From an uncultured Bacteroidota bacterium (GTDB taxonomy: Bacteria > Bacteroidota > Bacteroidia > Bacteroidales > CG2-30-32-10): a DNA stretch of 39,014 nt. How positions within the stretch are numbered: the stretch's first letter is position 1; each line of letters starts with the position of its first letter. The notes under the pieces are model-generated. The model saw only the letters and a list, made by a program, of their open reading frames with translations. It was not told the DNA's origin and made no database searches. The DNA is taken from positions 1 to 39,014 of the forward strand of contig CAISZK010000413.1 in the NCBI GenBank assembly GCA_903889915.1, read 5' to 3'. Shown here in pieces: positions 8,991 through 28,973 of the stretch. Both the position numbers and the translations under genes were made by a program.

Positions 8991-9026
8991 TTTGAAATTA
9001 TTAATATTAATTTAAAACTCAACACT

Positions 9027-10661: not shown

Positions 10662-10678
10662 TTATTTCTGATTTAAGA

Positions 10679-10712
10679 TTTGAGATCAGTATAATTTTTT
10701 TCTATACTTTTG
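10679..10712 (+). promoter_or_regulatory. Candidate internal promoter of the duplicated block
   Basis: TTTG at 10679-10682 and TACTTTTG at 10705-10712 match Bacteroidetes -33 and -7 boxes with a 22-nt spacer. The -7 box ends 35 nt before the GTG start, exactly as in the first copy, so the duplication carried its promoter. The neighbouring text TTTTGTTTTCA and CAGGCNTGTGGAACAAAAC is conserved too. Confidence 0.62.
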
Positions 10713-10746
10713 TTTTCATTTTACATCAATTTCTAATAACAGGCTT

Positions 10747-11208: not shown

Positions 11209-11256
11209 ATGATCACAAGGCTTGAAAAAAATATTTTAGATGTAAACCATAATTAA
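11209..11256 (+). pseudogene. In-frame scar of a deleted cheR copy
   Basis: A 15-codon frame, MITRLEKNILDVNHN, sits exactly where cheR sits in the first block. It starts on the ATG that abuts the cheW stop, like cheR. Its first three residues parallel MLT of CheR. Residues 4-15 align without gaps to the CheR C-terminus (RLKKIILAVNHH). The DNA around both ends is also conserved, including ATCGCGATGCT before the next cheW. The simplest reading is an internal in-frame deletion of about 490 codons after duplication. Whether the micro-frame is translated is unknown; it could keep ribosomes moving to the next cheW. Confidence 0.85.
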
Positions 11257-11264
11257 TTATCGCG

Positions 11265-11897: not shown

Positions 11898-11925
11898 CTT
11901 AATAACAACTTAAAAATCAAAGTCT

Positions 11926-13686
11926 ATGAAATGGTATATTAACATGAAAATCCGCTCAAAAATGTTCCTCTCATTAGGAATATTATTTGTATTAGCTGTA
12001 ATTACAATCGGTCTGGCACTTGTGACAATATCTGAAATATCCGATTCTCAAAAAACAATGAATAATGTTAATGTTGTTGATCTTGAAAATATGTATAAGA
12101 TAGAATCAGGGTTGCACCGCAATCTTGAAAACATACATGAGATGATGGGATCGAATGATGTCGCCGCCATTCAGAAATTACTAAAAAAAATTGATGATGA
12201 AGAAGCCAATATAAATACACTTTTAACCGGGTCGTTGAAATTGAATTCAGAAGACACTGCCGGAACCCGTTTGTTGAAAAGATTTGAAACAAACTGGCTC
12301 ATTTATACAAAGCAAACTGATGAGGAAATAAAATTGATAAATACTGGCAAACTTGAAGATGCTAAATTAATGGGAGATGAGATTCATAAAAACTCTTTTG
12401 AGAAGCTTATAAACGATATTTTTGTTGTCGCTAATCGGGCAAAAGGCAAAAATGATTCAATTTATCAATCGAACCAAAAACAAATTACAAAACTATACTT
12501 CATTGCAGTGGGTTTAGGTTCTTTAGACCTGATAGATATTATAGCCATTTTATGGTCAATTATTACGCTGATTGGAATTCCTTTGACTAAAATTACAGTT
12601 CTCACAGAAAAGGTTTCAGAAGGAGATTTCAATGTAGCTGTTGAAAGTGTTGACAGAAAAGATGAGATCGGTATTTTGATGAGAACCTTTCAAAAAATGG
12701 TGGATGGCTTTAAAGATATGTCAGTTTCAGCCAACCGTATGGCATCAGGCGATCTGTCAATAAAGATGAATAATGAAAAGCATGAAAATGATACAGGCAT
12801 GTTGACGAAACCATTGCGACAGATGGAAGAAAATCTGAGGAAGATCACTATAGATACCAAAGAAGCCGTTAATCTGCTCAACACTTCAGCAAGCGAAATT
12901 CTTGCATCCACAGCTCAACTGGCATCGGGTGCAAGCGAAACTTCATCCGCTATCACCGAAACCACGACCACGGTGGAAGAAGTGAAACAAACTTCACAGT
13001 TAGCTACCCAAAAAGCAAAAATGGTTTCCGACACTGCCAATAATGCATCACAGATCTCTGTTGGCGGGAAAAAATCAGTGGAGGAAACCATGATCATTAT
13101 GAACCGTATTCATGAACAAATGGAACTGGTGGCCGAAACCATTGTCAGGCTCAGTGAACAAAGTCAGTCAATAGGTGAAATAGCAGCAACAGTGAATGAC
13201 CTGGCCGAACAGTCGAATTTGCTTGCTGTGAATGCAGCCATTGAAGCGGCAAAAGCAGGAGAACAGGGTAAAGGTTTTGCTGTGGTGGCACAGGAAGTGA
13301 AAAGCCTTGCAGAGCAATCAAAACAGGCCACTGCACAGGTTAGAGTAATATTGAATGATGTGCAGAAATCCATCAGCGCAGCAGTGATGGCAACCGAGCA
13401 GGGAAGCAAAGCCGTGGAATCGGGTGTTAAACAATCCAAGGAAACTGGAGAATCAATAAGCAATGTGATGTCGTCCATATCCGAAACATCACAGGCAGCA
13501 ACACAGATCCTGGCAACCACTCAGCAACAAATTGTCGGTATGAACCAGGTGGCACAGGCTATGGAGAATATCAAACAGGCAAGTATTCAGAGTTTGTCGA
13601 GCACCAAACAGGTTGAGATGGCTGCACGCAATTTGAATGAAATGGGTATAAAACTGAAACAATTGATTGAACAGTATAAAGTGTAA
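11926..13686 (+). CDS. Methyl-accepting chemotaxis protein, tandem HAMP
   Basis: A 586-residue MCP with the same plan as the one at 9027: TM1 about 12-35, helical periplasmic sensor, TM2 about 188-218, HAMP, signalling domain ending in LIEQYKV. After FQKM (about residue 258) it carries an extra 42 residues ending in RQM. They include [10 protein letters not shown] and [10 protein letters not shown], features of a second HAMP (connector plus second helix). The periplasmic part differs more from the paralogue than the signalling part, so ligand specificity may have shifted while CheA/CheW contacts stayed the same. Confidence 0.95.
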
Positions 13687-13689
13687 TCA

Positions 13690-13829
13690 GTCATTGGTCA
13701 TTGGTCATTAGTCATTGGTCATTGGTTAATGACTACTGACTTTTGACTTTTGACAATTGACTAATGACTACTGACTATTGACTAATGACTACTGACTATT
13801 GACCATTGACTATTGACAAATGACTATTG
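13690..13829. repeat. Phase-locked heptamer array, 20 units
   Basis: Twenty consecutive 7-bp units fill the whole spacer between the MCP stop and cheA. The first six are of the type GTCATTG. The remaining fourteen are of the type ACTATTG, ACTAATG or ACTACTG. The second type is close to the complement of the first, so the array can fold back on itself. The last unit ends at 13829, so the cheA initiation region directly abuts the array. Confidence 0.92.
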
Positions 13830-13832
13830 ACC

Positions 13833-16112
13833 GTGAAACAGCAAGATGAAAAATTTTTAAAGATGCTGCTCGAAACGTTTAGGATAGAAGCGGAAGAGCG
13901 GTTGGGAAACATTTCTCATGCCCTTTTTGAACTCGAAAAAGAAGAGTTGCCTGAAAAGCAAGAGGGTTTGATAGAGGCTACTTTTCGTGAATTCCATAGT
14001 TTGAAAGGAGCTGCACGCAGTGTAAACCTTAGCAGTGTTGAAAAAATTTGCCAGGCTGCCGAAAGTGTCTTTTCACGACTTAAAAGCAAACAGTTACAAA
14101 TAACTGACGTCATCCTTGATGAAATTATTAAATGTGTTGATTGCATTAAGGATTTGATGAATCCTGAAAAACACTACCTGCAAAGTGAGATGTCGGCAAG
14201 AGCGTTGAAATTGTCTGTCCGGCTTGAACAGGCTGCAAGAGGTGAATTTTTAGAAAAAGATGTTGCAGAAGATTTACCTGTTGAAAATAGCGAAGAATCA
14301 GAGAACGAAAAATATACTTCTACAGATTCTACAGTCCGTATTTCAATCGTAACTCTCGATTTGCTCATGCAGCAGGTGGAGGAACTACGTTCTATAAAAC
14401 TGATGGAAAAAGATCAGGGCATTGAAGTGAAAAAAATATTAGACGATTTCGAAGCTATCAGAAAAATTTTACTAAAGAATAAAGTCAATATCAGATCGGT
14501 GCGAAGCGCTATCAAAAAATCGAACAGCGATAGCGCCAATGTTTATATTCCCCAGGTTTCAACTATTTTTGATATCCATGAACAGTCCGAAACACTGATC
14601 AAAACCCTCGCCCACAAAGTAAAACTTATCAGTGACAAAGCAGAGCATAACTATCGTGCCATAGAAAGCCAGATCGAAGGACTTACACAGGATATGAAAA
14701 AAGTGATGATGATGCCTTTTTCACTATTGCTGCAGTCATTTCCAATGATAGTAAGAGATCTGTCACGGCACCAGGAAAAACAGGTTGAACTGGTAATTGA
14801 GGGTGATAATATTGAAACAGACAGAAGAATATTGGATGAACTGAAATATCCTCTCATCCATCTCGTACGTAATTGCATTGACCATGGCATTGAAACCCCT
14901 GCCATAAGATTGAAAAAAGGCAAACCTGCACAGGCAAAAATTAAGATCAGCATTTCCCAGATTGATAGCTCTACTGCCGAAGTTCTAATTTCAGACGATG
15001 GTTCAGGAATTGACATTGAAAAACTACGCAACACTGTAAGAAACAAAATCAGCGACGCTGATATTAACGTTGATGAATACACCGAAAAAGAACTGCTTCC
15101 TTTTATTTTTTATTCAGGTATTTCCACCAAACAGGATATTACTGCTATTTCAGGCAGGGGATTAGGGCTTGCCATTGTCCGTGAAAAAACCGAAGGATTG
15201 GGTGGTACTATTTCGCTTTCAACTGAAAAAGATAAAGGCACTACCTTTAAGATACAGCTTCCTTTCAACCTTGCTTCTTTTCATGGTGTTGAAGTTATCA
15301 TTGCCGGTCAGAATTACCTGTTGCCAACCATTTATGTCGAGAGGGTTCTGGCTATACCTAAAGAACAAGTTGTTTCGCTCGAAAACCGTCAGGCAATTGA
15401 TGTTGAAGGCAAAGCTGTTTCATTGATGCCTCTTGCTCAAATTCTGGGTATTGAAAATAACACCTCAAATGCCAACAATGATGACAAACTTTCTGTTGTT
15501 GTTCTCAAAACAGCAGGCAGAAGGATAGCTTTTTTGATTGATAAAATTGTCGGGGAGCAGGAAGTATTGGTTAAAAAACTGGGAAGTCAGTTAAAAGTTG
15601 TCAGGAATATTTTGGGAGCCACTATACTTGGAAACGGCAAAATTGTGCCGGTTTTGAATGTTCCTGACATTTTAAATTTCTCGGAAAACACTTCATTCAC
15701 CATTCATAATTTATTTAACCCGCAGGAAGTAATGAGCACATCAAAAAAGAGAATAAACATCATGGTTGCCGAAGATTCCATCACATCGCGAATGATGTTG
15801 AAAAATATTCTCGAATCGGCAGGCTACAATGTAACAACTGCCATTGATGGTCTGGATGCTTACGAACAACTGGCATCGGGTGGTTACGACCTGGTTGTTT
15901 CAGATGTTGACATGCCGCGCATGAGTGGTTTTACACTTACTGAAAAAGTGAGAGGCGATAAAAGATTCTCTGATCTGCCCGTTATCCTGGTTACAGCCCT
16001 CGAATCAAAAGAGGACAGGGAGCGTGGTATAGACGTCGGCGCAAACGCTTATGTGGTGAAACGAAGCTTTGACCAAAGCAACTTACTCGATATTATTAAG
16101 AAAATTATTTAA
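13833..16112 (+). CDS. cheA: CheA histidine kinase with C-terminal receiver (WspE-like)
   Basis: About 759 residues from the GTG at 13833; a TTG at 13827 lies inside the heptamer array and is less likely. An Hpt domain comes first with phospho-acceptor His about 55 in EFHSLKGAARSV. A dimerisation/linker region follows with no clear CheY-binding P2 domain. The ATPase has LVRNCIDHGIE (N box), DDGSGID and GRGLGLAIV. A CheW-like P5 domain spans about 485-620. A receiver occupies about 640-759 with acidic pocket VAED, Asp about 691 in SDVDMP, and Lys about 743 followed by Arg rather than the usual Pro. It takes signals from both MCPs through the CheWs and can phosphorylate its own receiver, CheB, and perhaps the downstream receiver-kinase. 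Confidence 0.94.
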   Translation: MKQQDEKFLKMLLETFRIEAEERLGNISHALFELEKEELPEKQEGLIEATFREFHSLKGAARSVNLSSVEKICQAAESVFSRLKSKQLQITDVILDEIIKCVDCIKDLMNPEKHYLQSEMSARALKLSVRLEQAARGEFLEKDVAEDLPVENSEESENEKYTSTDSTVRISIVTLDLLMQQVEELRSIKLMEKDQGIEVKKILDDFEAIRKILLKNKVNIRSVRSAIKKSNSDSANVYIPQVSTIFDIHEQSETLIKTLAHKVKLISDKAEHNYRAIESQIEGLTQDMKKVMMMPFSLLLQSFPMIVRDLSRHQEKQVELVIEGDNIETDRRILDELKYPLIHLVRNCIDHGIETPAIRLKKGKPAQAKIKISISQIDSSTAEVLISDDGSGIDIEKLRNTVRNKISDADINVDEYTEKELLPFIFYSGISTKQDITAISGRGLGLAIVREKTEGLGGTISLSTEKDKGTTFKIQLPFNLASFHGVEVIIAGQNYLLPTIYVERVLAIPKEQVVSLENRQAIDVEGKAVSLMPLAQILGIENNTSNANNDDKLSVVVLKTAGRRIAFLIDKIVGEQEVLVKKLGSQLKVVRNILGATILGNGKIVPVLNVPDILNFSENTSFTIHNLFNPQEVMSTSKKRINIMVAEDSITSRMMLKNILESAGYNVTTAIDGLDAYEQLASGGYDLVVSDVDMPRMSGFTLTEKVRGDKRFSDLPVILVTALESKEDRERGIDVGANAYVVKRSFDQSNLLDIIKKII

Positions 16113-16122
16113 AAAGACTTTT

Positions 16123-17169
16123 ATGATTAACCTGCTGATAGTTGATGACTCAGCCGTAGCAAGAACATTTCTGAATTATATTTTTTCACTCGATCCCGAC
16201 ATCAGGGTAGTGGGCATTGCCCGAAGTGGAATTGAAGCCCTTGAACTGGTCAAACGAAACAAACCCAACGTAATTTCCATGGACATTCACATGCCTGTGA
16301 TGGATGGGTTTGAGACTACGAGGAAAATTATGGAGACCTTTCCCACCCCCATTGTTCTTGTGAGCCAAAGCATGAACATCACCGAGGTTTCTATTGCTTA
16401 TAAATCCATTGAAGCAGGCGCTCTGGCATGTGTGGCGCGACCTGTAAGCATTGATCATCCCGATTTTGAAAAAGGCGCCAAAGAGCTTATTCAGACTATC
16501 AAACTTATGTCGGAGGTGAAGCTTGTGCGACGCTGGGCCAAAAAAGAAGGGCCAACAGAAACGCATACCGAAGCTGTTGCTAAAAAAAACGATTTCGTTA
16601 TCCCTGCCAATCATGTCAGCCTGCTTGCAATCGGCGCTTCTACAGGCGGACCTTCGGTGATACTTGAAATTCTTTCAGGGATCTCAAAAAATATTCCGTT
16701 CCCCGTGCTTATCACCCAACACATGTCGCCCGGATTTGAGCAGGGTTTTGCTGACTGGCTTTCACATTCCAGCGGCTTACCTGTTTCCATTGCAATGCAC
16801 GAAGAACGACCGGTTAAAGGTCATGTGTATCTTGCCCCTACAAATTTTAATATGGGGGTGAATGCCAAAGGTCAGATCACACTTTCAAAAGCAAAAGCCA
16901 ACCAGCATATTTGCCCCTCAATAGATTTTCTCTTCCAATCTGTTTCAAGAGTTTATGGCGGTTCGGCTGTTGCGATAATTCTTTCGGGTATGGGAAGTGA
17001 TGGCGCATGCGGCATGAAACTGTTGTACGACAAAGGCGCCGTCACCATTGCGCAGGACGAAAAAAGCTGTGTGGTATATGGTATGCCCAAAGAGGCGATC
17101 AATGCACAGGCAGTAAAATATGTGTTACCCCCAACGGAAATTTCGGAATTTATTAATTCGATTATTTAA
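16123..17169 (+). CDS. cheB: CheB protein-glutamate methylesterase (WspF-like)
   Basis: A 348-residue protein from ATG 16123 (MINLLIVDDS). An in-frame upstream extension reaches back over the cheA end but adds no domain. Receiver at 1-125 with Asp about 54 (SMDIHMPVMDG). The methylesterase domain has Ser about 173 in GASTGGPS, His about 200 in TQHMSPGF, and Asp about 293 in GMGSDG, the known CheB catalytic triad. It removes methyl groups from the MCPs when phosphorylated by CheA, closing the adaptation loop with CheR. The gap to cheA is 10 bp. Confidence 0.95.
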   Translation: MINLLIVDDSAVARTFLNYIFSLDPDIRVVGIARSGIEALELVKRNKPNVISMDIHMPVMDGFETTRKIMETFPTPIVLVSQSMNITEVSIAYKSIEAGALACVARPVSIDHPDFEKGAKELIQTIKLMSEVKLVRRWAKKEGPTETHTEAVAKKNDFVIPANHVSLLAIGASTGGPSVILEILSGISKNIPFPVLITQHMSPGFEQGFADWLSHSSGLPVSIAMHEERPVKGHVYLAPTNFNMGVNAKGQITLSKAKANQHICPSIDFLFQSVSRVYGGSAVAIILSGMGSDGACGMKLLYDKGAVTIAQDEKSCVVYGMPKEAINAQAVKYVLPPTEISEFINSII

Positions 17170-17184
17170 TTAAAAAATTTGATC

Positions 17185-18462
17185 ATGGACAAAACAGACA
17201 AAATGATTTTAATCGCAGAAGACAGTCCTACACAGGCTGCCACGCTCGAACATTTATTAACATCGGCAGGATATCCTGTTATTGTAGCGTCTAACGGAAA
17301 GCAGGCTTATGAAGAAGCTTTGAACCACAAGTTCCATTTAATTATCAGCGACATTATGATGCCCGAAATGAATGGCTACGAATTGTGCCATGCCATCAAG
17401 GCAAATCCGGATCTGAAGCGACTGCCTGTGTTGTTGCTTACTTCATTTACCGAATCCAACAGTTTGCTGAATGCGTTGAAAGCCGGAGCCGAATTTTTTA
17501 TCACCAAACCTTACAAAGATGAGGTGCTTTTGCGCAAGGTTGAATCGCTTATCAATAACCCGGTAAAGGGATTTGCAGAGTTTCCGGGCAACAAGTTTTT
17601 TATTTCCGAATTCAATAAGCTTTTGGATTATGTGGACGAGCGCAACAAGACCGTTAATTTCTTCATGTCCACCTTCGAATTTCTCAAAGATCAGAATGAT
17701 CAGCTTTCCGAAGCCGAAGAGTCATTGAGAGAATTGAATCAAAAACTGGTTGACCTCAACAGTACCAAAGATAAACTCTTTTCAATCATTGCCCATGATC
17801 TGAGAAGCCCTTTTGTCGGCATTTTGGGATTGACTGAACTGCTGATCGGCAACATCAAAAATGTGGATCCTGCTACGGCTGAAGATTATATCAGCGATAT
17901 ACACTCTGCTGCCAAACAGACTTTCACTTTGCTTGAAAACCTGCTTGCATGGGCCAAAACCCAAACAGGACAAATTGATTTCAAGCCTGAAACCATTAAC
18001 CTGAAAGGTATTGTTGAGGAAGTTGTTGCCGTGTTGAGTTATCCGGCACGCATAAAAAACATCTCACTAAACATCGCTCCTTCCGTTGACATTGATGTCT
18101 ATGCCGACCAGAACATGCTGAAGACCATACTGCAAAACCTGGTTTCAAATGCCATTAAATTTACCAGGCCCGAAGGTACAATTGAAATTACCGCCACTCC
18201 AAACCATAGCTCTGTTGAAATTTCCGTAAATGACAATGGAATTGGCATCAGCGATGAAAACAAAAACAAGCTTTTCCGTCTCGACAGCAATGTATCAACC
18301 TATGGCACCGCCGACGAGAAAGGTTCAGGACTGGGGCTGGTGCTTTGCAAGGAATTTATTGAAAAACACGGAGGAAATATCAGGGTTGTCAGCGATGTGG
18401 GAAAAGGAAGTGAGTTTAAAATAAAGCTGCCGTATCAGAACACGGGAATGCAGGTGACATAG
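17185..18462 (+). CDS. Receiver-histidine kinase, likely output of the chemosensory system
   Basis: A 425-residue soluble protein from ATG 17185; a TTG six bases upstream is less likely. N-terminal receiver with Asp about 56 (SDIMMPEMNG) and Lys in ITKPY. A coiled-coil linker spans about 155-195. HisKA follows with His about 204 in FSIIAHDLRSP, then HATPase with LVSNAIKFT, DNGIGI and GSGLGL. No transmembrane segment, so its input is presumably phosphorylation of its receiver. It is the last gene of the operon, where Pseudomonas wsp operons have WspR (receiver plus GGDEF). The gap to cheB is 15 bp. Its own target regulator is not encoded nearby. Confidence 0.9.
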   Translation: MDKTDKMILIAEDSPTQAATLEHLLTSAGYPVIVASNGKQAYEEALNHKFHLIISDIMMPEMNGYELCHAIKANPDLKRLPVLLLTSFTESNSLLNALKAGAEFFITKPYKDEVLLRKVESLINNPVKGFAEFPGNKFFISEFNKLLDYVDERNKTVNFFMSTFEFLKDQNDQLSEAEESLRELNQKLVDLNSTKDKLFSIIAHDLRSPFVGILGLTELLIGNIKNVDPATAEDYISDIHSAAKQTFTLLENLLAWAKTQTGQIDFKPETINLKGIVEEVVAVLSYPARIKNISLNIAPSVDIDVYADQNMLKTILQNLVSNAIKFTRPEGTIEITATPNHSSVEISVNDNGIGISDENKNKLFRLDSNVSTYGTADEKGSGLGLVLCKEFIEKHGGNIRVVSDVGKGSEFKIKLPYQNTGMQVT

Positions 18463-18572
18463 GGAATATCTTCTCAATCAAAAAAGGGACAATGACGTGC
18501 TGCAAATCCGAACTGACAGGCATAATTTTTAAATTTAAGTTTAATTATCAGCAATTTAGCATCACTCCTCTT

Positions 18573-18803
18573 CTCGTGAGCTGCGTAGCTCGTGGAACGA
18601 GCTATGCAGCTCGTGGAACGAGCTATGCAGCTCATGGAAGGAGCTATGCAGCTCATGGAAGGAGCTATGCAGCTCGTGGAAGGAGCTATGCAGCTCGTGG
18701 AAGGAGCTATGCAGCTCATGGAAGGAGCTATGCAGCTCGAGGAACGAGCTATGCAGCTCGTGGTATGAGCTGTGTAGCTCGTGCGGTGAGCTGCAAAGCT
18801 CGT
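18573..18803. repeat. 21-bp minisatellite with internal palindromes, 11 units
   Basis: Eleven units on an exact 21-bp grid, tracked by GCAGCTC or close variants from 18585 to 18795. Consensus unit CTCGTGGAACGAGCTATGCAG. Each unit contains GAGCT-atgc-AGCTC and often CTCGT-gga-ACGAG, so the array can form a string of small hairpins. A last displaced half-unit lies at 18834. Long open frames run through on both strands because the period is a multiple of 3 and lacks stops; they are low-complexity and not accepted as genes. The rest of 18463-18572 shows nothing recognisable. Confidence 0.9.
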
Positions 18804-18867
18804 GCGAAAAGCCACATACAGATGACTATCTGTGCAGCTCATGGGACGGGTACGTAAGCATAATTAT

Positions 18868-18928
18868 CCGCCGATCCGCCGACAGGGATTTGTAATCCCT
18901 GTCGCTTTACTATATGGATTATTAATCA
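18868..18928 (+). repeat. Palindromic two-hairpin repeat, copy C
   Basis: Perfect 11-bp stem CGACAGGGATT with loop TGT (18880-18904), linker GCTTTACTATA, then a degraded small hairpin GGATTATTAATC. Same layout as copies D and E, and inverted relative to A and B. A direct CCGCCGATCCG block precedes it, as in copy D. Confidence 0.82.
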
Positions 18929-19004
18929 GTTTAATAATAATTTCATGGATTATTTTTAATTGCAATAGATGTTATTTTATTAAAATAGTAAAAGCCTAAT
19001 TTCA

Positions 19005-19012
19005 TATATTTG
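19005..19012 (+). promoter_or_regulatory. Candidate -7 box for the GT-C-like gene
   Basis: TATATTTG matches TAnnTTTG 133 nt before the ATG at 19146. No good -33 TTTG was found at the expected distance. The surrounding DNA is very A+T-rich, so chance matches are likely. Confidence 0.3.
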
Positions 19013-19145
19013 ATGAAAATTTCGGAAACCATTATCACCAGAACAACGAAATTAATGTATTTATATTTATTACCAGATCGATTTTAAAATCTTTGAGTAG
19101 AAGCCTAAGTTGAACTGTAATTAGAAATAAACTAATAATAACAGC

Positions 19146-20945
19146 ATGAATGCAAAAAAGAAAAATTTAAAAAAATCAGCGCCAATTAATAAATCAAAGG
19201 TCGGCAAAACCACCGGTAGAAGTAAAATTACAGAAATACATTCTCCATTAATCAAAATTCTTTGTATCGATAATAAATTAAGGTTTATAAGCTATGCGGC
19301 TATTTTATTAATAGGAGTAATTTTAAGATTTTCAACTACATTAAAAACGGGACTTGACCCTGACTCAACAGGCTATTTAACTCCTGCATTAAAATTATTA
19401 ATTAATGGCGATTTATATCACCTTTATTCAAGAAGCTACCCATACCCATTGTTCTTAACTGTTATTTTATATTTTTTCAAAAACATAAATTCCATTGCAT
19501 TAATTCAACATGTATTAGGTATTTTATCCATTGGTCTTTTAATATACATTATCGAACATTATTGGCTTAACCGTTTTCAAAAAGATAAATTAAAAATAAC
19601 ATCTGTTTTCTTGACCTTTTTATTTATTGCTTTGATTTGTTGGGATAGTAATATTATTGAATTTGAAAAAATGCTTAGGCCAGAAGGAATATTAATGCCT
19701 TCAATAATATTGTCCTTATTTGCAATTGCCTTATCGTGGTACAATATTAAAAGCAAGTATCATAATGTACATTTTTATGCTGCAATTTTTCTACTATTGT
19801 TTTTTGCTTTGATGCATCCAAGATGTCTTGCAGCTTTTCTGGCGGTGATAATTATTTTAATCATCAATGAAGTTGTGCATTCAAAATCTATTCAAAAGAG
19901 ATTTCTAACAATTATTGGTACATTGCTGGTTGCTTTCATTTGTTTTTACCCTGAGTATTATCTTATTAATAAATACGACAGGACTACTTCTGTTTTTTCA
20001 ATGCGTCAGTTTATTTTCAGCAACAGCCCATTGATACTTAAAGCTATTAATAATGGAATTACAGCTAACGACGATTATGACAATAATTATCTTAAAAAAG
20101 ATTTATTATTAACCTTGAATGATGAACAAGACAAGAAGAATTTCCCAATTTTAAAATTCAATATTGATAAAATCATGTGGGATTTGACAAACATGAAGCT
20201 GAATCAATATATCCTCACGACCACCCTTCATAATCATCCTGAAATACCATTTAAAGATGGTCAGTACAGGTTTACAGAGACTAACATTGTATCACTAAAC
20301 AAGGAGTCACAGGATAAATACAATTCGTATTATAAAACGTGGTTCAAAATAATATTAACAAAGTACCCTTACGAAGTATTTCAAAAAACTTGCAGACAAG
20401 TTATAAATGTGTTATTTGGGGATAAGGGTGATTTTACCAAATTCTATTGTTTGTTTGATGGTCATCAGAGTTATGGATCTGAAACAGGTCTGGTGGATTA
20501 TTTAAAAAGCAATTATAATTACCATCCTGAAGAAACTGTTACAATAAAAGGGTCCAATGTGACAGAAATATTCTATAATTTTCTGACTTTTCCATTGAGA
20601 GTGTTATTTATTTTGTGTTTGATTTATGCCATCATTTTCTTATTAAAAAAAAGACTATCTCTCTTAACGATTATTTCCTTTCAAGTTGTTGTTATTTATC
20701 TATTAACAGTTGCATTCCTGCATACTTTTGACAATTCCAGGTACTTAATCTGTTTTTCGCCAATGATATATCTTTTCATTTTGTTTTGTTCATTTGACAT
20801 AATATTAGCATTCCAACAGCGTTATATTTTAAAGACTCAAAAAGCTCTCCCTGACACAAACGCACGTTTTAAGAAGCTTACAAATAAGAATTTTTTAATA
20901 AATATTAGAAGACAGGTTATCAAGATTTTTCATACTAACTCATGA
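19146..20945 (+). CDS. Polytopic GT-C-like membrane protein
   Basis: A 599-residue protein with a Lys-rich cytoplasmic N-terminus (about 1-28), then many hydrophobic helices (AAILLIGVILRF about 51-62, FLTVILYFF, and so on). The first extracytoplasmic loop carries LDPDSTGYL (Asp about 71 and 73), the place and type of acidic motif expected in GT-C glycosyltransferases such as the PMT/ArnT/GT39 relatives. GT-C enzymes transfer sugars from polyprenyl-phosphate donors outside the cytoplasm. A soluble domain (about 290-460) is followed by further C-terminal helices and a basic tail. Codons are strongly A/T-biased compared with the chemosensory genes, consistent with acquired DNA. The enzyme class is inferred from topology and motif only. 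Confidence 0.6.
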   Translation: MNAKKKNLKKSAPINKSKVGKTTGRSKITEIHSPLIKILCIDNKLRFISYAAILLIGVILRFSTTLKTGLDPDSTGYLTPALKLLINGDLYHLYSRSYPYPLFLTVILYFFKNINSIALIQHVLGILSIGLLIYIIEHYWLNRFQKDKLKITSVFLTFLFIALICWDSNIIEFEKMLRPEGILMPSIILSLFAIALSWYNIKSKYHNVHFYAAIFLLLFFALMHPRCLAAFLAVIIILIINEVVHSKSIQKRFLTIIGTLLVAFICFYPEYYLINKYDRTTSVFSMRQFIFSNSPLILKAINNGITANDDYDNNYLKKDLLLTLNDEQDKKNFPILKFNIDKIMWDLTNMKLNQYILTTTLHNHPEIPFKDGQYRFTETNIVSLNKESQDKYNSYYKTWFKIILTKYPYEVFQKTCRQVINVLFGDKGDFTKFYCLFDGHQSYGSETGLVDYLKSNYNYHPEETVTIKGSNVTEIFYNFLTFPLRVLFILCLIYAIIFLLKKRLSLLTIISFQVVVIYLLTVAFLHTFDNSRYLICFSPMIYLFILFCSFDIILAFQQRYILKTQKALPDTNARFKKLTNKNFLINIRRQVIKIFHTNS

Positions 20946-21025
20946 GGAAACAGAACGCGAACTTACGGATTAGCACCAATGTAGTAAATTCCTGATATTT
21001 ATTTTTTAATAACAACTTTACCATA

Positions 21026-21271
21026 ATGACTTTAGATGAATTAAAAAAGAGATTACATGATCATAATGTTCCTGAACGCTGGTATTCATTAGATAATGGT
21101 TTAAAATCAGATGCAATTATTCTTTACAAGAATTATTACAAATGGGAATATTTTTATTTTGATGAAAAAGGCAATCGTCTTCAGCAAAAAACATTTGATA
21201 AAGAAGAAGAAGCATTTGATTATTTTTGGGAAAAAATACTGAGAGAATTACAATTTTTTAAAAGGCTCTGA
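21026..21271 (+). CDS. Small hypothetical protein
   Basis: An 81-residue soluble, charged protein with no signal peptide. It begins MTLDELKKRLHDHNVPERWYSL, and the middle reads KWEYFYFDEKGNRLQ. The pattern (helix, YSLDNGL, then aromatic strands and FDKEEEAFDYFWEKIL) recalls small proteins often seen as immunity or orphan proteins near polymorphic toxins, but I cannot assign a family and no toxin gene is adjacent. A+T-rich like its neighbours. Upstream gap 80 bp. Confidence 0.6.
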   Translation: MTLDELKKRLHDHNVPERWYSLDNGLKSDAIILYKNYYKWEYFYFDEKGNRLQQKTFDKEEEAFDYFWEKILRELQFFKRL

Positions 21272-21346
21272 TAGCACTCATTAATTAATTTTCGAACGAT
21301 TCAAACATATGCTACAATAAAAAATCAAACATTTAACCCTCAAATT

Positions 21347-21862
21347 ATGATCCAAAAAATTAAAAATAGTCATGGAACAATTTTCCCACCTGCCCTGGTC
21401 TTTGCAGGATATGTTTTTCTGGTGTTCGGTATCATTTCCGTTATTAGCATCTGGATAGCAGGAATGATATTGATTATTTTAGGAGCATTTATTTGTTTTT
21501 CTTATTCAGGAATTGAGATTGATGTAACCGAGAAAAAATACAGAGAATATACTTTTTACTTCGGCATCAAAAGCGGCAAATGGATGCAGCTTGACAGATT
21601 TTCATTCCTTACCGTTTTGTGCAACAGAGAAGTCTATGAAGTTCATAGCAGAGCAAATGTTACCACTTCTGACAGTGAGAAGTTTTACGATGTTTTCATG
21701 CTCGACAAACTTCACAGGGAAAAGCTTTTATTAAAAAGGTTTAAGAATGCGGAACTTGCAACTGAATATGCTAAAAAAATCTCCATTGAGTTGAATATGG
21801 AATGTGCAAAATATAATCCGGTTTTGACAACGGCATCAAAACTTAAGCGTTACAGGAGATGA
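21347..21862 (+). CDS. Hypothetical two-helix membrane protein
   Basis: A 171-residue protein. A hydrophobic hairpin spans about 15-50 (ALVFAGYVFLVFGIISVISIW, then GMILIILGAFICF). A cytoplasmic beta-rich domain follows (IEIDVTEKKYREYTFYFG) and ends in basic residues. The arrangement resembles small bacterial PH-like membrane proteins, but this is only a shape match. A palindromic repeat begins 6 bp after the stop. Confidence 0.62.
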   Translation: MIQKIKNSHGTIFPPALVFAGYVFLVFGIISVISIWIAGMILIILGAFICFSYSGIEIDVTEKKYREYTFYFGIKSGKWMQLDRFSFLTVLCNREVYEVHSRANVTTSDSEKFYDVFMLDKLHREKLLLKRFKNAELATEYAKKISIELNMECAKYNPVLTTASKLKRYRR

Positions 21863-21867
21863 AAAAT

Positions 21868-22009
21868 TCCGCCGATCCGCCGACAGGGATTCCGCCGACA
21901 GGGATTTGCAATCCCTGTCGTTCTACTATAAGGATTTTTAATCCGATTTATAAAATCTTTTCATACGCACTCGTCAGACAGAGCGCGAACTTTCAGAAGA
22001 ACTCCACCC
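21868..22009 (+). repeat. Palindromic repeat copy D with long tail (direct repeat of copy E)
   Basis: Starts with CCGCCGATCCGCCGACAGGG, a partial duplication. A perfect hairpin CGACAGGGATT-tgc-AATCCCTGTCG follows at 21896-21920. Next come linker TTCTACTATAA, small hairpin GGATTTTTAATCC, and a roughly 65-bp tail up to about 22009. From 21896 it is nearly identical to 23434-23548. Both copies have the same orientation and bracket the three-gene redox module. Confidence 0.88.
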
Positions 22010-22027
22010 ATGATTTCAAACACTTTG

Positions 22028-22552
22028 TTATGAGTTGTGTGTACTTACCAGTTTATTAAAAGTAGTAATAAACCATTTCAGTCTTTTGATAACATGAAGA
22101 ATAAGATATACTGAAAGAATTATTGCAAGCTTATCATGTATCTCAATGAAAGTCTTTCGCAGCATTAAATCGCCTTTCATTAAATCAATAAACCAGGGTA
22201 TCAATCCGGTGATAGCAACCAGGATAAAAACAACCGATAAGGTCAAAACTTGTCTGTTTTTAGCCACGAGCTTTTTCCTGATGACTACTTTATACCATTT
22301 CCAATGCAGAGAAATATGGAAAATCATTAATATCGAGAGGATGATAATTGAAATTTTATGAATATCCGACCAACCATTATAACTTATTCCAAGAACATGG
22401 TTATTTAAAGCAATTTTCCCATGGTGGCCAATATGATATTCTACCTGGATGAGTAATCCCGAAAAAACTGTCAATAATCCTAAAATAAGTAACCCGGAAT
22501 TGATAAACAAACTATAAAAAATGCTTTCCCAATTTGACGATCCTCTTTTCAT
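22028..22552 (-). CDS. DUF4405-like four-helix membrane cytochrome b protein
   Basis: A 174-residue protein with four predicted transmembrane helices. His residues fall at helix positions suited to haem binding: SDIHKISIIILSILMIFHISLHW and IHDKLAIILSVYLILHVIK. This matches my memory of DUF4405 proteins, which resemble the membrane cytochrome b part of small redox modules. Its ATG overlaps the stop of the upstream ferredoxin gene by 4 bp (ATGA), so translation is coupled. With the ferredoxin it could form a membrane redox complex (inference). Confidence 0.78.
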   Translation of the reverse strand: MKRGSSNWESIFYSLFINSGLLILGLLTVFSGLLIQVEYHIGHHGKIALNNHVLGISYNGWSDIHKISIIILSILMIFHISLHWKWYKVVIRKKLVAKNRQVLTLSVVFILVAITGLIPWFIDLMKGDLMLRKTFIEIHDKLAIILSVYLILHVIKRLKWFITTFNKLVSTHNS

Positions 22553-22782
22553 TTGATTACTTTACAAATAGCCTCAGAGGAGCAGACTTTAACGCATTTC
22601 AGACAGCCTGTACAATTACTAACATTTGCAAATTTAACATGTTTATGCCATGGAATATTTATTCTCCTGATTACATTGTTTGCACAAATTTCCTGGCATT
22701 TCCAGCATGCTGTACATTTATTAGTATCGAGTAAAACAAATGCTGTACCTGCATGTTCTCTTTTGTTGAATCCTTGTCTCAT
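22549..22782 (-). CDS. 2[4Fe-4S] ferredoxin
   Basis: A 77-residue protein from ATG 22782 (MRQGFNKREHAG); a TTG seven codons earlier is possible. Two cluster motifs: CTACWKCQEIC followed by a separated fourth-ligand region, and CTGCLKCVKVC. The insertion between them (IRRINIPWHKHVKFANVSN) makes it longer than clostridial ferredoxins. No signal peptide, so it acts in the cytoplasm. It lies between the Crp/Fnr gene (72 bp gap) and the DUF4405 gene, which suggests electron delivery to or from that membrane protein. Confidence 0.87.
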   Translation of the reverse strand: MRQGFNKREHAGTAFVLLDTNKCTACWKCQEICANNVIRRINIPWHKHVKFANVSNCTGCLKCVKVCSSEAICKVIK

Positions 22783-22854
22783 ATTCCAATAATTTGTGAG
22801 CAAAATTCTTCAAAAGTCAGCGTCCAAACGATAACAATTGTTAAGAAATGAGAC

Positions 22855-23409
22855 CTATTTTCTGTTTCTTATTCGGCTAAGTGAAATTGGAGTTATTCCT
22901 AAATAGGAAGCAATATAATGTTGTGGTACCCGTTTGATTATTTCAGAATGATTTTTGATTAAATCTTCATACCGCTCTTGTGGAGTGTCTTTTATCCGTG
23001 AAAGAAAAAGTTGTCCATAATTCCTGAAACGCTGGAAAATAAAATCATGAAAAATATCTTTAAATTCAGGGTAGGCTTCAAAAAGTTGTGTAAAGTCATT
23101 TTTTGCAATTGAAAAAATAATCGAGGGTTCTATGCTTTCAATTGTAAACAGACTTGGTTTGATATTCATCAAACTGTCAATAGAAGCAACGGGCTGTCCT
23201 TCAAAAAAGAATTGAAAAGTAATGTCTTTTCCATCTTTATTGAACCACTCACGCAAACAGCCTTTTTTTATGAAATAAATGTTGTTTGCAATTTCTCCCT
23301 CATGCAATAAAACTGTTTTAGAGGCAATTTCTTTTTCAAAGAATGCCTTCTGAAACTTTGCCCGGTTCTTTTCATCCCTTTTTATTGCATTTATTAATTT
23401 ATCAAACAT
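22855..23409 (-). CDS. Crp/Fnr-family transcriptional regulator
   Basis: A 184-residue protein from ATG 23409 (MFDKLINAIK); a GTG eight codons upstream lies just outside palindromic copy E and is not preferred. The N-terminal cyclic-nucleotide-like domain has LLHEGEIANNIYFIKKGCLREWF. The C-terminal helix-turn-helix is VPQHYIASYLGITPISLSRIR, typical of the Bacteroidetes branch. The lack of clustered N-terminal Cys argues against an Fnr-type Fe-S sensor. It probably regulates the ferredoxin-DUF4405 pair downstream on the same strand. Confidence 0.9.
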   Translation of the reverse strand: MFDKLINAIKRDEKNRAKFQKAFFEKEIASKTVLLHEGEIANNIYFIKKGCLREWFNKDGKDITFQFFFEGQPVASIDSLMNIKPSLFTIESIEPSIIFSIAKNDFTQLFEAYPEFKDIFHDFIFQRFRNYGQLFLSRIKDTPQERYEDLIKNHSEIIKRVPQHYIASYLGITPISLSRIRNRK

Positions 23410-23432
23410 TATCAGTTCTTTTAGAGTTTCCA

Positions 23433-23548
23433 CCGACAGGGATTTGCAATCCCTGTCGTTCTACTATAAGGATTTTTAATCCGATTTATAAAATCTTTTC
23501 ACACGCACACGTCAGAGACAGAAAGCGAACTTTCAGAGAAACACCAAC
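23433..23548 (+). repeat. Palindromic repeat copy E with long tail
   Basis: Perfect hairpin CGACAGGGATT-tgc-AATCCCTGTCG at 23434-23458, then the same linker, small hairpin and tail as copy D. Differences from D are a few substitutions and short indels in the tail. It lies 24 bp upstream of the Crp/Fnr start on the opposite strand, so it could shape that promoter region. Confidence 0.88.
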
Positions 23549-23566
23549 AAAATCCTTAATTTCCAA

Positions 23567-24055
23567 TCATTTTTTATTTATTATTCGTTTGTGCTCCTTC
23601 TTCAGCACAGCAGGTTTTGCATTGAACACATTTTGGAATAAAAGTATCTTTTCTTTGAGAGTCATATTTATCAGATCCTGATTTGCGTACCACCATTTAT
23701 AAAATTCCACAGGTTTATTTGAATAAGGGACAAGAGCCTGAACAGGGTAATCATAACCTGTAAATTTTATTCTTGTTTTCAATCCCAACGCCTCGGCAAA
23801 ATATTGCGGATGGAACGCTCTTAATTTTGAAATCAGGATAGCAAATACATCTGTATTAACCCTGACATTTTTAGCTCTCCTAAATTTATCGAATGAAACA
23901 GGATCTTCAGTTAACCACCTGGAAATGCTCATGGTTTTCAACCCCGTTTCGGTTTGGATGATCATGAGGTCGGTCAAAAAATATGTTCTGTTGCTATCAG
24001 GATTAGAAACAGGAATGATTGTTTCGTGGTCTGAATTTGAATGATCTTCTGTCAT
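23567..24055 (-). CDS. Hypothetical protein
   Basis: A 162-residue soluble protein of no family I recognise. The N-terminus is acidic and polar (MTEDHSNSDHETIIPVSN). The middle (ISRWLTEDPVSFDKFRRAKNV) and the aromatic segment KPVEFYKWWYANQDLINM look like an ordered helical domain. The C-terminus is very basic (KKEHKRIINKK). It follows the T9SS gene by 65 bp on the same strand. Coding is likely but not certain. Confidence 0.58.
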   Translation of the reverse strand: MTEDHSNSDHETIIPVSNPDSNRTYFLTDLMIIQTETGLKTMSISRWLTEDPVSFDKFRRAKNVRVNTDVFAILISKLRAFHPQYFAEALGLKTRIKFTGYDYPVQALVPYSNKPVEFYKWWYANQDLINMTLKEKILLFQNVFNAKPAVLKKEHKRIINKK

Positions 24056-24120
24056 GGTTGATTCTATTTAAAATCGCAATCATTTCAGGTTTGCAATTGC
24101 TGATTTATCCATTTGTGCGA

Positions 24121-25404
24121 TTATTCTTTTATGAATCTCCTTGTCGCAATTCCCTTGTCTGTCTGAAATGTCGCATAATAAAAGCCCTTTACAAAATTTG
24201 AAATATCTACAGATGTTTTTGTTTGAATGAGTGCTTGCTTGGATAATAATTGACCTTGTATATTGTAAATCGAAAGTGTTGCAACTTTGTTTGGGGTAGC
24301 GGTTTCAATAATCAGATTGTTTTGTGCAGGGTTAGGAAAAATATTAAAGTCCCGGGGATTATACTCATTTATGCCTGCTATCTGCACATAGATCATATTG
24401 GAAGTGTCCGAAATACAACCATTGGTGTCAGCCACCACTGTGAAGTAATATCCTGTTGTATATGCAATATAGTACTGCAATGTATCACCCACAAGCAATA
24501 CGTTTCCCAAGGAATCACGATAATACCACTGATTACCAAGAGGAACATTGGAAACCAATGAGTCATTATTCACAAGCGTAACCACAGGTGTTGGAAATAT
24601 AGTAACCATTGTTTGAACAGGAGGGTCTGCTTGTCCATTTACTGTCATTATCATTGTATAAATTCCTGAATTTGCATTTGTAGCATTTGGAATTGAAGGG
24701 TTCATCAAAGTTGAAGTGAATCCGTTAGGCCCGGTCCAGCTATATGTTGCACCGTTAACAGGATTTCCAACTGTGAGGTTCAGTGTCTGCCCTGCACATA
24801 AGGGACCATTATTGGCAATTAATGTTGCAATCATTGAACAATCCGTACTTCCCGGTCCCATTACCTGTGAAAAGAAAATATTACAAGGAACATTAGAGTA
24901 ATTTGAAATCATTAATAAGTAATACTGGCCGGTGTAGGCATTTGGAATATAACACCACTCTACCGAGCTTACATCATAGCTGCAATCAACAACGTTCCCA
25001 CTTGGATAACCACCACCTTGTCCTGACGCATGATGACTGGCAAGACCAACACCTCCGGTAAGGGAATCGCAGGCTGGCGAGGGTGTAAATGGCCCCCAAC
25101 AACAAAAATCAACGTCATTGGTACTGTTTCCTCCCACCATCTTAATTTCAAGGTTTCCCGGATTTGCTATTTTCAAATAATACCATGCAGGGTTTGGTTC
25201 CGACCCAAGGCAACTATAACTTGGACCTGCTTGAGCAGTACCCGAATTTACTCCGGCAGGATAACTATAAGTGCTGCCGGTGCAAAAAGGAAAAGCAGTT
25301 GAACATAAATTATTTTGCGAAAAATTTCTTCCTGGGATGAATAATAAAACTAAAACGAATGACAGATAAAATATCATTGTCGGTCTTGATGGTTTATTTT
25401 TCAT
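24121..25404 (-). CDS. Secreted T9SS-sorted protein with Ig-like domain
   Basis: A 427-residue protein. Signal peptide IFYLSFVLVLLFIPGRNFSQ. The first domain (about 32-185) is the Cys-rich beta-sandwich frequent in Bacteroidetes secreted proteins (CSTAFPFCTG, WYYLKIANPGNLEIKM, DVDFCCWGPF). An Ig/PKD-like domain follows (GPLCAGQTLNLTVGNPVNGATYSWTGPNG). The last 75 or so residues are a type A sorting domain (FNIFPNPAQNNLIIE, then GFYYATFQTDKG, ending in RRFIKE). It should be exported and anchored outside the cell. Function unknown; adhesion or display is typical for such architecture. Confidence 0.88.
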   Translation of the reverse strand: MKNKPSRPTMIFYLSFVLVLLFIPGRNFSQNNLCSTAFPFCTGSTYSYPAGVNSGTAQAGPSYSCLGSEPNPAWYYLKIANPGNLEIKMVGGNSTNDVDFCCWGPFTPSPACDSLTGGVGLASHHASGQGGGYPSGNVVDCSYDVSSVEWCYIPNAYTGQYYLLMISNYSNVPCNIFFSQVMGPGSTDCSMIATLIANNGPLCAGQTLNLTVGNPVNGATYSWTGPNGFTSTLMNPSIPNATNANSGIYTMIMTVNGQADPPVQTMVTIFPTPVVTLVNNDSLVSNVPLGNQWYYRDSLGNVLLVGDTLQYYIAYTTGYYFTVVADTNGCISDTSNMIYVQIAGINEYNPRDFNIFPNPAQNNLIIETATPNKVATLSIYNIQGQLLSKQALIQTKTSVDISNFVKGFYYATFQTDKGIATRRFIKE

Positions 25405-26123: not shown

Positions 26124-26999
26124 TCACTTATTCACAATTTGAAGAAGCTTTTTCAGATCTTTCACTTTACGCTTTTGGTCAATTTTGCTATAGATGGCTA
26201 TCAGTTCGCTGATGTGAATGGAAATAATATCAAGGTTTGAACATGGTAAAAAATATTTTTCCTGAGGCTCAACTTTAATGTCCATCAGGTATCTCTCCAC
26301 TTCTTTCCTCGAAAATATTGCTCCCTTATAAAACGGGTTGATATAAAACCTCACGTCATTTACCTGTGGCTGCCCCTCCCCTTCTTCAGTTTCGTCCATA
26401 AATGCAAGAATAAACTGACCGGGCAGGTCAACACCGTAAACCGGTAAATGCAATTGGCGAGCGATGATGATATACAAAATCCCAAGCGACACAGCATTTC
26501 CCTTGTGGGTTTCGAGAAGTGTATTCAGGTAGGCGCTTTTCAGATCATAAAAACTTTCAGTGTTCCCCGTAAAACCGTTCGTATCATAAATCACATGGTT
26601 GATAAAAGTGATCTTTTCAGGGTCCGGTTGCTGGTCATTCAATTGAATCCAGATGTCACGAAGGATGATCTCGATCTGTGTCCTGATGTCATCTTCCTTC
26701 ACTTTGTAATGTTCCAGGCGGGCAAGGCGGATACACATCTCAATCATTTCATAATCGTCCAGGTCCTTCTTTCCTTCAAGATCGGCGCAGAGTGCAGCAA
26801 ACTGTATCTCATAATTTATTTCCTGCAGGCGTTGAAGAACCATCGAATCAAAAGTGTTCTCACTTTTCTCAAGCAGAACAGGAATGGCAGCAGTTCCAAA
26901 CGAAAGAATTTTCAAAGCTATTCCTTCAAATATCTCCTCGCTCGGCTCATCAATCAGGCTGACCAAAGCATTAAGTTCACTTTCGTCCTTTTCGTTCAT
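26124..26999 (-). CDS. SirB1/transglutaminase-like family protein
   Basis: A 291-residue cytoplasmic protein. An N-terminal helical part (about 1-115) precedes the SirB1-type transglutaminase-like core GNAVSLGILYIIIARQLHLPVYGVDLPGQFILAF. In members I recall, the last motif carries His (PxHF); here the residue before F is Gln, so a catalytic role is doubtful. The C-terminus is helical and basic. It follows the phosphorylase gene on the same strand. The 119-bp spacer between them is entirely a heptamer array that abuts its ATG, leaving no visible Shine-Dalgarno sequence. Confidence 0.8.
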   Translation of the reverse strand: MNEKDESELNALVSLIDEPSEEIFEGIALKILSFGTAAIPVLLEKSENTFDSMVLQRLQEINYEIQFAALCADLEGKKDLDDYEMIEMCIRLARLEHYKVKEDDIRTQIEIILRDIWIQLNDQQPDPEKITFINHVIYDTNGFTGNTESFYDLKSAYLNTLLETHKGNAVSLGILYIIIARQLHLPVYGVDLPGQFILAFMDETEEGEGQPQVNDVRFYINPFYKGAIFSRKEVERYLMDIKVEPQEKYFLPCSNLDIISIHISELIAIYSKIDQKRKVKDLKKLLQIVNK

Positions 27000-27000
27000 G

Positions 27001-27119
27001 GATGTTGGGTGTTGGGTGTTGGATGTTGGATGTTAGATGTTGGATGTTAGATCTTGGATGTTGGATCTTGGATCTTGGATCTTGGATCTTGGAATTTGAG
27101 ACTTGGATCTTGGAATTTT
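27001..27119. repeat. Heptamer array (GATSTTG), 17 units
   Basis: Seventeen uninterrupted 7-bp units, mainly GATGTTG on the left grading into GATCTTG on the right, with two GGTGTTG, two GATGTTA and some decayed units. They fill the full spacer between the phosphorylase stop and the SirB1-like ATG. The gradient suggests local slippage or unequal exchange. Confidence 0.92.
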
Positions 27120-27991
27120 CACGCAGTGATTCTGTCCAGCACCATCTGAATCATTTTTTCAACAGCCGGATGATAATCCTTGCTGAATTGTTTGCTCACG
27201 CGGTTAGCGATGATTGTACAAATTGTGACAGCCTGATGCCCGAGCACAGCGCTCAATCCATACAATGCCGAAGTTTCCATTTCGAAATTGGTGATGCGGT
27301 TTCCTTTACAATTGAAAGTTTCCATTTTCTCATTCAACATCGGATCCAGAGGAACAATTCTCAGTTGCCTGCCCTGCGGTCCATAGAAACCTGAAGCAGT
27401 TGCAGTGATACCTTTAAACAACCCTTCACCGAGTTTCTTCATAAGAATTTCAGAGGCTCTGACTGTGTATGGCCTGGCAAGTCTTTTGCCCCAACCTGTA
27501 TGCTCCATAAATGCTTCGGTTATTTCATCGCTGAAAATATTTTTCTCAGTCTGATAAAAATTCAGCAATCCATCAAGGCCAAGTCCGTATTCCGACATCA
27601 CATAATTATCAACAGGGATATCAGCCTGCAGTGCGCCCGATGTGCCGAGCCTTACCAAATGAAGACTGGTTTTATTTTCTTTGATTTCACGATTGCCAAG
27701 ATCAATATTCACAAGCGCATCAAGCTCGTTAACGACAATGTCAATATTATCAGTCCCGATACCCGTTGACAAAACAGTGATCCTTTTTCCATTGTAAGAA
27801 CCGGTGTGCGTCAAAAATTCCCTGTTCTGTATCCTGCATTCAATATTTGTAAAGTGTTTGGAAATCGTCTCCACACGGCCCTGATCGCCTACAAGGATAA
27901 TATTGTTTGCAACCTGTTCAGGGTGCAACATCAGGTGATAAATACTGCCATCAGGATTGAGTATAAGTTCTGTTTCCGCAATTTTTCTCAT
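27119..27991 (-). CDS. udp: Nucleoside phosphorylase (uridine phosphorylase type)
   Basis: A 290-residue PNP/UDP-family enzyme. Phosphate-binding text ILVGDQGRVETISKHF and STGIGTDNIDIVVNEL are near the N-terminus. VRLGTSGALQADIPVD and the base/ribose site ITNFEMETSALYGLSAVLGH follow. These are the hallmarks of uridine phosphorylase-like enzymes (nucleoside + phosphate to base + ribose 1-phosphate). Length is slightly above that of E. coli Udp. ATG 27991 is preferred. It is divergent from the universal stress gene at 28104. Exact base preference cannot be read from the sequence. Confidence 0.87.
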   Translation of the reverse strand: MRKIAETELILNPDGSIYHLMLHPEQVANNIILVGDQGRVETISKHFTNIECRIQNREFLTHTGSYNGKRITVLSTGIGTDNIDIVVNELDALVNIDLGNREIKENKTSLHLVRLGTSGALQADIPVDNYVMSEYGLGLDGLLNFYQTEKNIFSDEITEAFMEHTGWGKRLARPYTVRASEILMKKLGEGLFKGITATASGFYGPQGRQLRIVPLDPMLNEKMETFNCKGNRITNFEMETSALYGLSAVLGHQAVTICTIIANRVSKQFSKDYHPAVEKMIQMVLDRITA

Positions 27992-28009
27992 AAGTAATAT
28001 TAGATTATG

Positions 28010-28024
28010 ACGAACAAAATTCGT
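28010..28024. promoter_or_regulatory. Small inverted repeat in the udp-usp divergent region
   Basis: ACGAA-caaaa-TTCGT lies between two divergent genes and could be an operator or chance. The rest of 27992-28103 shows no clear promoter pair. Confidence 0.25.
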
Positions 28025-28103
28025 TATTTTGCACGTTTTAATTAATGCAAATATAAAAAATAATCCCCATACCCATTCTTTAAAGAGTACACATTAGAAC
28101 AAA

Positions 28104-28973
28104 ATGAAAGGTCATTATAGTAACATACTGGTGCCAACAGATTTTTCGGAGCAGTCACTTCTTGCACTTGAGCAGTCGTTTACACTGGCAAGACTGCTGA
28201 ATGTTGAGATCACGTTATTGCATATTTTTGAGAAAACCAACATTCATTATGCATTTGGTTTATTATCGCGTGAGCCAAGTGAAGAAGAGTTGAACAATAA
28301 CCAGGAATCCTGTTATGCCCGTTTACTTCAAATTGCCGAAAGTTCTTCAAAAAATTCTTCAATAAAAGTCAATCCTTTATTGCTGAATGGAGTGGTTCAT
28401 GAAAAGATTCTTGGTGTAGCAAAAGACATTTATGCCCGTTTCATTGTCATGGCCACCAATAGTTCAGATCCTGACAAAAAGAAAGCATTTATCGGAACCA
28501 CCACCGCGAATGTTATACTCACAGCTCCATGTCCCGTCCTGACATTTAACGGAACAAACATCAGGGGAAATTTTGAAACAATTATTCTGCCGCTTGACCT
28601 GACCAAACAAACTCAACAAAAAATAACCAAGGCCATAGAGTTTGCCAAATATTACAACTCAACAATACGCGTAGTCTCTGTTCTACTCACCGACGAACCC
28701 GATGTTGTGAACCGCCTTACAGAACAACTCAAACTGGTGAAAGAATACATTGAGAAGCGGGACATTTTCACGACTGCAAAGATCATTCATGGCGATCCTG
28801 CTGCCGGCGGACTCACTTCATACATTATTGATTTCGCATACGAAAATAATGGCGATCTGATCATGATCATGACACAGCAGGAAGTTGATGCACGGGAGCA
28901 ATTTCTCGGATCCAGTGCAAAGGCTTTTATCACCAATGCAAAAATTCCGGTGCTTTCAATTACACCGAAATAA
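28104..28973 (+). CDS. Universal stress protein, tandem UspA domains
   Basis: A 289-residue protein made of two UspA domains (about 1-150 and 155-289). Domain 1 begins NILVPTDFSEQSLLALEQSF and ends GTTTANVILTAPCPVLTF. Domain 2 ends FLGSSAKAFITNAKIPVLSI. The Gly-containing nucleotide-binding loop is partly kept in both, so ATP binding is possible. Tandem Usp proteins are common single-gene stress proteins in Bacteroidetes. No partner is apparent in the divergent phosphorylase or the next operon. Confidence 0.92.
   Translation: MKGHYSNILVPTDFSEQSLLALEQSFTLARLLNVEITLLHIFEKTNIHYAFGLLSREPSEEELNNNQESCYARLLQIAESSSKNSSIKVNPLLLNGVVHEKILGVAKDIYARFIVMATNSSDPDKKKAFIGTTTANVILTAPCPVLTFNGTNIRGNFETIILPLDLTKQTQQKITKAIEFAKYYNSTIRVVSVLLTDEPDVVNRLTEQLKLVKEYIEKRDIFTTAKIIHGDPAAGGLTSYIIDFAYENNGDLIMIMTQQEVDAREQFLGSSAKAFITNAKIPVLSITPK

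Follow-up and report, generated by a model that had tools for sequence, protein, structure and literature searches.

Direct repeats around a Crp/Fnr-ferredoxin-DUF4405 operon as probable members of a dispersed, REP-like repeat family in an uncultured Bacteroidota bacterium

The redox module and its flanking repeats

The window, by which we mean the whole stretch of 39,014 nucleotides that was analysed, contains a group of three minus-strand genes for a Crp/Fnr-type regulator, a ferredoxin and a DUF4405 membrane protein, flanked by two repeats, D and E. The preliminary description held that D and E are near-identical, lie in the same orientation and enclose these three genes and nothing else, and in this it was correct: the two are direct repeats that agree at 91.6% of positions over 119 bp, or at 93.6% over 110 bp once the edges are left off, and no further evident gene lies between them. 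The features with which the argument is concerned are these:

2561-2628, plus strand: head copy with the other hairpin-B type
6153-6220, plus strand: head copy with the other hairpin-B type
18868-18933, minus strand: repeat C, a third head copy, on the same strand as D and E
20948-20978, minus strand: tail-only decayed match, directly past the end of a gene for a 599-aa protein
21868-22010, minus strand: repeat D, a two-hairpin head (21884-21949) and a tail (about 21966-22010)
22028-22552, minus strand: DUF4405 membrane protein (PF14358), likely a b-type cytochrome, the family function being taken from PMC11334425
22549-22782, minus strand: ferredoxin (Fer4) with two [4Fe-4S] motifs, 77 aa from the likely ATG
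22832-22843, no strand assigned: operator-like palindrome TAACAATTGTTA between the Crp/Fnr and ferredoxin genes
22855-23409, minus strand: Crp/Fnr-type regulator (PF00027), 184 aa from an ATG placed by alignment with the copy on contig C294
23422-23546, minus strand: repeat E, a head (23422-23487) and a tail
38856-39011, plus strand: C-terminal relic of a REP-associated tyrosine transposase (RAYT) of the type found in genome G008, 49 aa, 65% identical to the G008 protein

The longest exact stretch common to D and E is 69 bp (21895-21963 and 23433-23501), as against at most 15 bp for the longest exact repeat in 50 shuffles of the 6-kb stretch, and their DNA-fold z-scores are -5.0 and -5.9, respectively; an Rfam scan of the window returned nothing at gathering scores. 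The outer end of D also has 24 bp exactly in common with copy C (18867-18890), and the three copies C, D and E look, from such identities, as if sequence had been exchanged among them. The faint tail-like match that had been pointed out near 20949 is real, with 74% identity to the repeat tail over 31 nt. The tail is in fact a separate repeat, with 13 core matches in 457 kb; it is found up to 75 bp upstream of 5 of the 66 heads described below and folds weakly (z of -1.2 and -0.6). The A+T-richness ascribed to the 18.9-23.5 kb stretch also holds, the GC content being 0.312 over 18875-23546 relative to a mean of 0.376 for 495 sampled genome windows, and is extreme in 18938-21867 (0.294, with 1.4% of sampled windows lower) and mild in the module itself (0.324, with 10.5% lower).

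Other repeated sequences are present in the window. The two plus-strand head copies form a same-orientation pair (95% over 63 bp) around YceI-like and CxxCH-bearing genes, labelled by eye, and from 6318 to 13084 a chemotaxis-type gene block is duplicated, its copies being 85-87% identical. There is a tandem array of a 21-bp unit at 18536-18829, and short arrays of 7- or 14-bp units lie at 2116-2206, 13669-13845 and 26985-27124, the first two of which are partly inverted relative to each other.

Within the module, the ferredoxin and DUF4405 genes overlap by 4 bp, and the order Crp-ferredoxin-DUF4405 is the same in all three known copies, namely that in the window, that on contig C294 of the same bin, and that at locus L046 of Breznakibacter. 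The palindrome TAACAATTGTTA between the Crp/Fnr and ferredoxin genes is intact in the window and in C294 and has one base changed in L046, where palindromes stand both before the ferredoxin gene and before the DUF4405 gene (4877-4898 and 5185-5206), the one before DUF4405 being perfect. The motif AACAATTGTT occurs four times in 555 kb of own-genome sequence, and two of these occurrences are the window and C294 sites. The palindrome resembles the box of the Crp-like regulator PrfA, TTAACANNTGTTAA, and heme b binding has been demonstrated for DUF4405 proteins (PMC11334425). The module is like Crp/Fnr-regulated electron-transfer operons with DUF4405-type cytochromes in having a regulator of this type and a nearby TTAACANNTGTTAA-type palindrome, and differs from them in being a compact three-gene unit, found in three copies, beside which no apbE gene or flavinylated partner was noticed.

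A second copy of the module and its distribution

The copy on contig C294 (L026, 3657 bp) has 80% nucleotide identity to that in the window over 1369 bp, and the homology runs from 6 bp ahead of the Crp ATG as far as the C-terminus of DUF4405; D/E-type repeats are lacking from it. Relative to the rest of the own-genome sequence examined, the module is the only part of C294 held in common. The dN/dS values between the two copies are 0.05, 0.25 and 0.15 for the three genes, with a dS for the Crp gene (2.7) that is near saturation, and as judged from these comparisons purifying selection acts between the copies. On C294, the order is a thioredoxin-like gene, the module and an IS91-type transposase gene, and the module lies between imperfect attC-like palindromes; positions 1-2430 of the contig have the appearance of a cassette-like array around the thioredoxin-like gene and the module. 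A 14-nt segment at the start of the module unit pairs with one at its end at 93% complementarity. Three candidate attC-like sites there have fold z-scores of -2.95, -1.54 and -3.14, of which the -1.54 was reached in 18 of 200 shuffles.

These features make the C294 copy like an integron cassette or a CALIN, as a gene unit between imperfect palindromes with complementary ends, and one might therefore suppose that the module reached the window as an integron-type gene cassette and that the repeats were inserted at or near its ends later. The extent of the homology between the copies would suit this well, as would the end of the window copy, CACACAAC (minus strand, 22034-22041, in the last DUF4405 codons), which resembles the end of the C294 unit, CACACAA, except that this 8-nt match was spotted after the fact. 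We nevertheless regard such an arrival as doubtful. None of 11 integrase matches in the genome exceeded the TIGR02249 cut-off, the split matches skip profile positions about 180-237, and matches below the cut-off are meaningless because all 14 of 14 control genomes give them too. A DNA search of the bin found no other stretch resembling the C294 sites, no partner half was seen in the sequence around D, and the window copy, in contrast to integron cassettes, has no attC. C294 itself differs from integron cassettes and CALIN in that it has no integrase and has two long sites and one short, with R-box matches that are partial by eye. In tetranucleotide composition it lies nearer to the genome mean than do 64% of 125 own-genome windows, which is compatible with membership of the bin, although a 3.7-kb contig could be mis-binned.

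The module is patchily distributed. At an E-value of 1e-3, the DUF4405 protein has a match in 3 of 59 other relatives and a strong one only in G033; a 395-genome sample of the phylum gave no further genome with a match at 1e-20. When 84,980 species genomes were scanned by pattern, one relative emerged, Breznakibacter xylanolyticus; its DUF4405 protein and that of G033 read identically. Among viral contigs, 105 stretches fitted the pattern and none was a relative, and the module was not found in plasmids.

The preliminary description had proposed looking for the presence or absence of the module in relatives, and the answer is a weak one. None of the 5 same-family genomes searched (two of which are less than 90% complete) yielded the module protein, and to the left of 26.1 kb the gene order is not kept in any of the four in which the locus was compared, so that the absence of the module cannot be tied to the repeats. 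The genes to the right (26124-28973) do occur together, in whole or in part, in G001, G002 and G004, the G001 and G002 stretches being short contigs; none of the tested genes from 13827 to 25404 lies beside this block in relatives, apart from generic receiver-domain matches in G003. The absence of the module from same-family genomes fits its acquisition in the lineage of the window, and the redox operon was probably acquired horizontally. What supports mobility of the module is its patchy distribution and the repeat-free C294 copy, and not D and E.

The repeat family and its link to a transposase

The repeat unit consists of a small hairpin, CGGATTnnnAATCC, a spacer around TATARTAAAACG and then a hairpin with 11-bp arms; the small hairpin is nearly invariant (CGGATT...AATCC). 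A regular expression for the head proved too loose (49 matches versus 11 in one shuffle of the sample), and a covariance model built from 27 copies was used instead. It identifies at least 66 copies in the bacterium's own genome, 16 in G007 and 2 in G008, the first number being a minimum, as 150 of the 3270 candidates from the first look were scored. Five of these copies are in the window and the rest, at least 61, lie in other parts of the genome, and the same 66 were recovered in 59 genome stretches, most of them picked for carrying matches; a BLAST search of the genome with D gave at least 35 matches, with 40 of 65 candidates scored. The copies are mostly intergenic, as the centres of only 2 of 66 fall inside open reading frames of at least 150 aa, compared to 69% of points placed at random in those loci. 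The arms of hairpin B differ between copies yet stay complementary, with 39 double-changed cells among the 27 copies versus 13.4 in shuffles, a value reached in 0 of 500. Two of the five whole-structure covariation measures do not exceed the shuffles, namely the count of double-change pairs (five; 97/500) and that of further pair types.

The family is connected to a RAYT. In G008, a 180-aa gene on contig C37 is flanked by two copies in opposite orientation, one about 11 bp upstream of it and the other about 31 bp downstream, and its product matches NF047646 (REP_Tyr_transpos) at 96.8 bits, where the NCBIfam cut-off is 80. G007, in which repeat copies are present within about 1 kb of two related transposase genes, encodes in the one that was compared a protein 52% identical to that of G008. 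In the window's own genome, a full-length matching RAYT was not found in the sequence examined; the relic at the right-hand end is 5'-truncated and its stop lies 3 bp from the end of the contig. The flanks of the six Y1 genes of this genome carry other repeats, none of them of the D/E family. Judging from these sequences, the family is RAYT-linked and REP-like, with a Y1/HUH RAYT as its likely transposase.

The features in common with REP, REPIN and BIME elements and their RAYTs (TnpA-REP), including REPtrons, are the short palindromes, the tens of dispersed and mostly intergenic copies, the compensatory changes in stems and the two copies that flank a RAYT gene in G008. The family differs from these systems in its two-hairpin unit and in having mostly GTAA or ATAA, as opposed to GTAG or GTGG, before the hairpin: over 66 copies the foot is GTAG in 4, GTGG in 1, GTAA in 21, ATAA in 22, ATAT in 3, ATAG in 2 and none of these in 13, so that the 5' GT[AG]G foot of canonical REPs is missing from most. 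Since RAYT-linked structures that lack this foot have been described (PMC6006769), we have filed the family as REP-like and not as canonical REP. It differs further from REPIN and BIME inverted doublets in that copies in this genome are mostly single or in the same orientation, and from REP/RAYT systems in that its own genome shows just the relic of a matching RAYT.

Local direct copies are a habit of this repeat family. There are 17 neighbouring pairs within 10 kb, of which 13 are in the same orientation, and in 2000 simulations of uniform placement without contig breaks the mean was 7.3 and the maximum 17, so that the clustering is not accounted for by plain scattering. For 10 of the 37 copies on multi-copy contigs the best match is on the same contig, whereas shuffled labels gave 1.0 on average and never more than 8 (2000 shuffles). 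The strongest local same-orientation sets include a triple on contig C85 (89-100%), pairs on C45 (90.8%) and C464 (92%), and D-E itself. In the C85 triple (L094; copies at 47, 3657 and 8669, all on the plus strand, spanning 47-8736), the second and third copies enclose trpS (312 bits against a cut-off of 176.75) and hflX, and a bracket of such repeats is thus no sign of dispensable cargo.

It had been suggested that recombination between D and E would excise the module as a circle. The anatomy behind this proposal stands and recombination over 69 bp is physically possible, but with at least 66 mostly intergenic copies and recurrent local direct pairs the D/E pair is no special boundary. We consider it very unlikely that D and E function as the boundaries of an excisable unit whose recombination frees the module and leaves one repeat behind, even if the exact identity, the patchiness of the module, its A+T-rich surroundings and the end that D has in common with C, which would agree with past recombination involving C, D and E, are all as might be expected of one. 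In addition to the size of the family and the similar pair around the housekeeping gene trpS, the repeats have diverged by about 8%, which indicates no recent exchange over their whole length; there is no recombinase gene between them; and no excised, single-repeat or empty-site form was seen, the nearest genomes compared being of the same family and having lost the gene order.

Within the family of 66 copies, D is the best match of E and E that of D, and their combination of head and tail is not seen elsewhere at such identity, which leaves room for an event specific to the two. One such event would be a Campbell-type capture, in which a circle with the module and a single repeat underwent one recombination with a resident repeat, an old, one-off step that is now frozen; the patchy, A+T-rich module would agree with this, and C-D and D-E would then represent two successive captures. 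This, too, is unlikely, as RAYT-driven copying or gene conversion accounts for the pair equally well, the trpS pair represents direct copies made without capture, and, the module being all that C294 has in common with its own genome, no repeat-bearing donor is known.

Repeats and operon as independent elements

Taken together, D and E are very probably members of a dispersed, intergenic, REP-like and RAYT-linked family that happen to lie around an independent operon. In the model we propose, a RAYT, whose matching form was found here only as a truncated relic, probably copied the hairpin units into intergenic gaps long ago. Their extended similarity suggests that D and E then arose from each other, or from a common local ancestor, by local copying or recombination, and that other same-orientation neighbours of the family arose in the same way. 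Deletion of the module by general recombination over the 69 identical bp could occur, but it would not be a programmed excision.

As for the operon, the palindrome is conserved, and the Crp/Fnr regulator probably binds TAACAATTGTTA just downstream of its own gene, in which case it would control the translationally coupled ferredoxin and DUF4405 genes. The sensor would thereby switch on a small electron path from ferredoxin to a membrane cytochrome. It is tempting to speculate, with low confidence, that the module and its operator constitute a self-regulated mobile redox cassette acquired twice by the same lineage, once into the integron-like array of C294 and once into a REP-rich chromosomal site at which attC was lost and the ends were replaced by RAYT-linked repeats.

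Near-identical direct repeats around a tidy group of genes, then, need not signal a mobile unit, as the same family brackets a tRNA-ligase gene. The analysis connects a palindromic repeat family whose foot is non-canonical with a likely transposase, and it draws attention to a compact ferredoxin-cytochrome operon under probable Crp/Fnr control, the operator and function of which may be tested.
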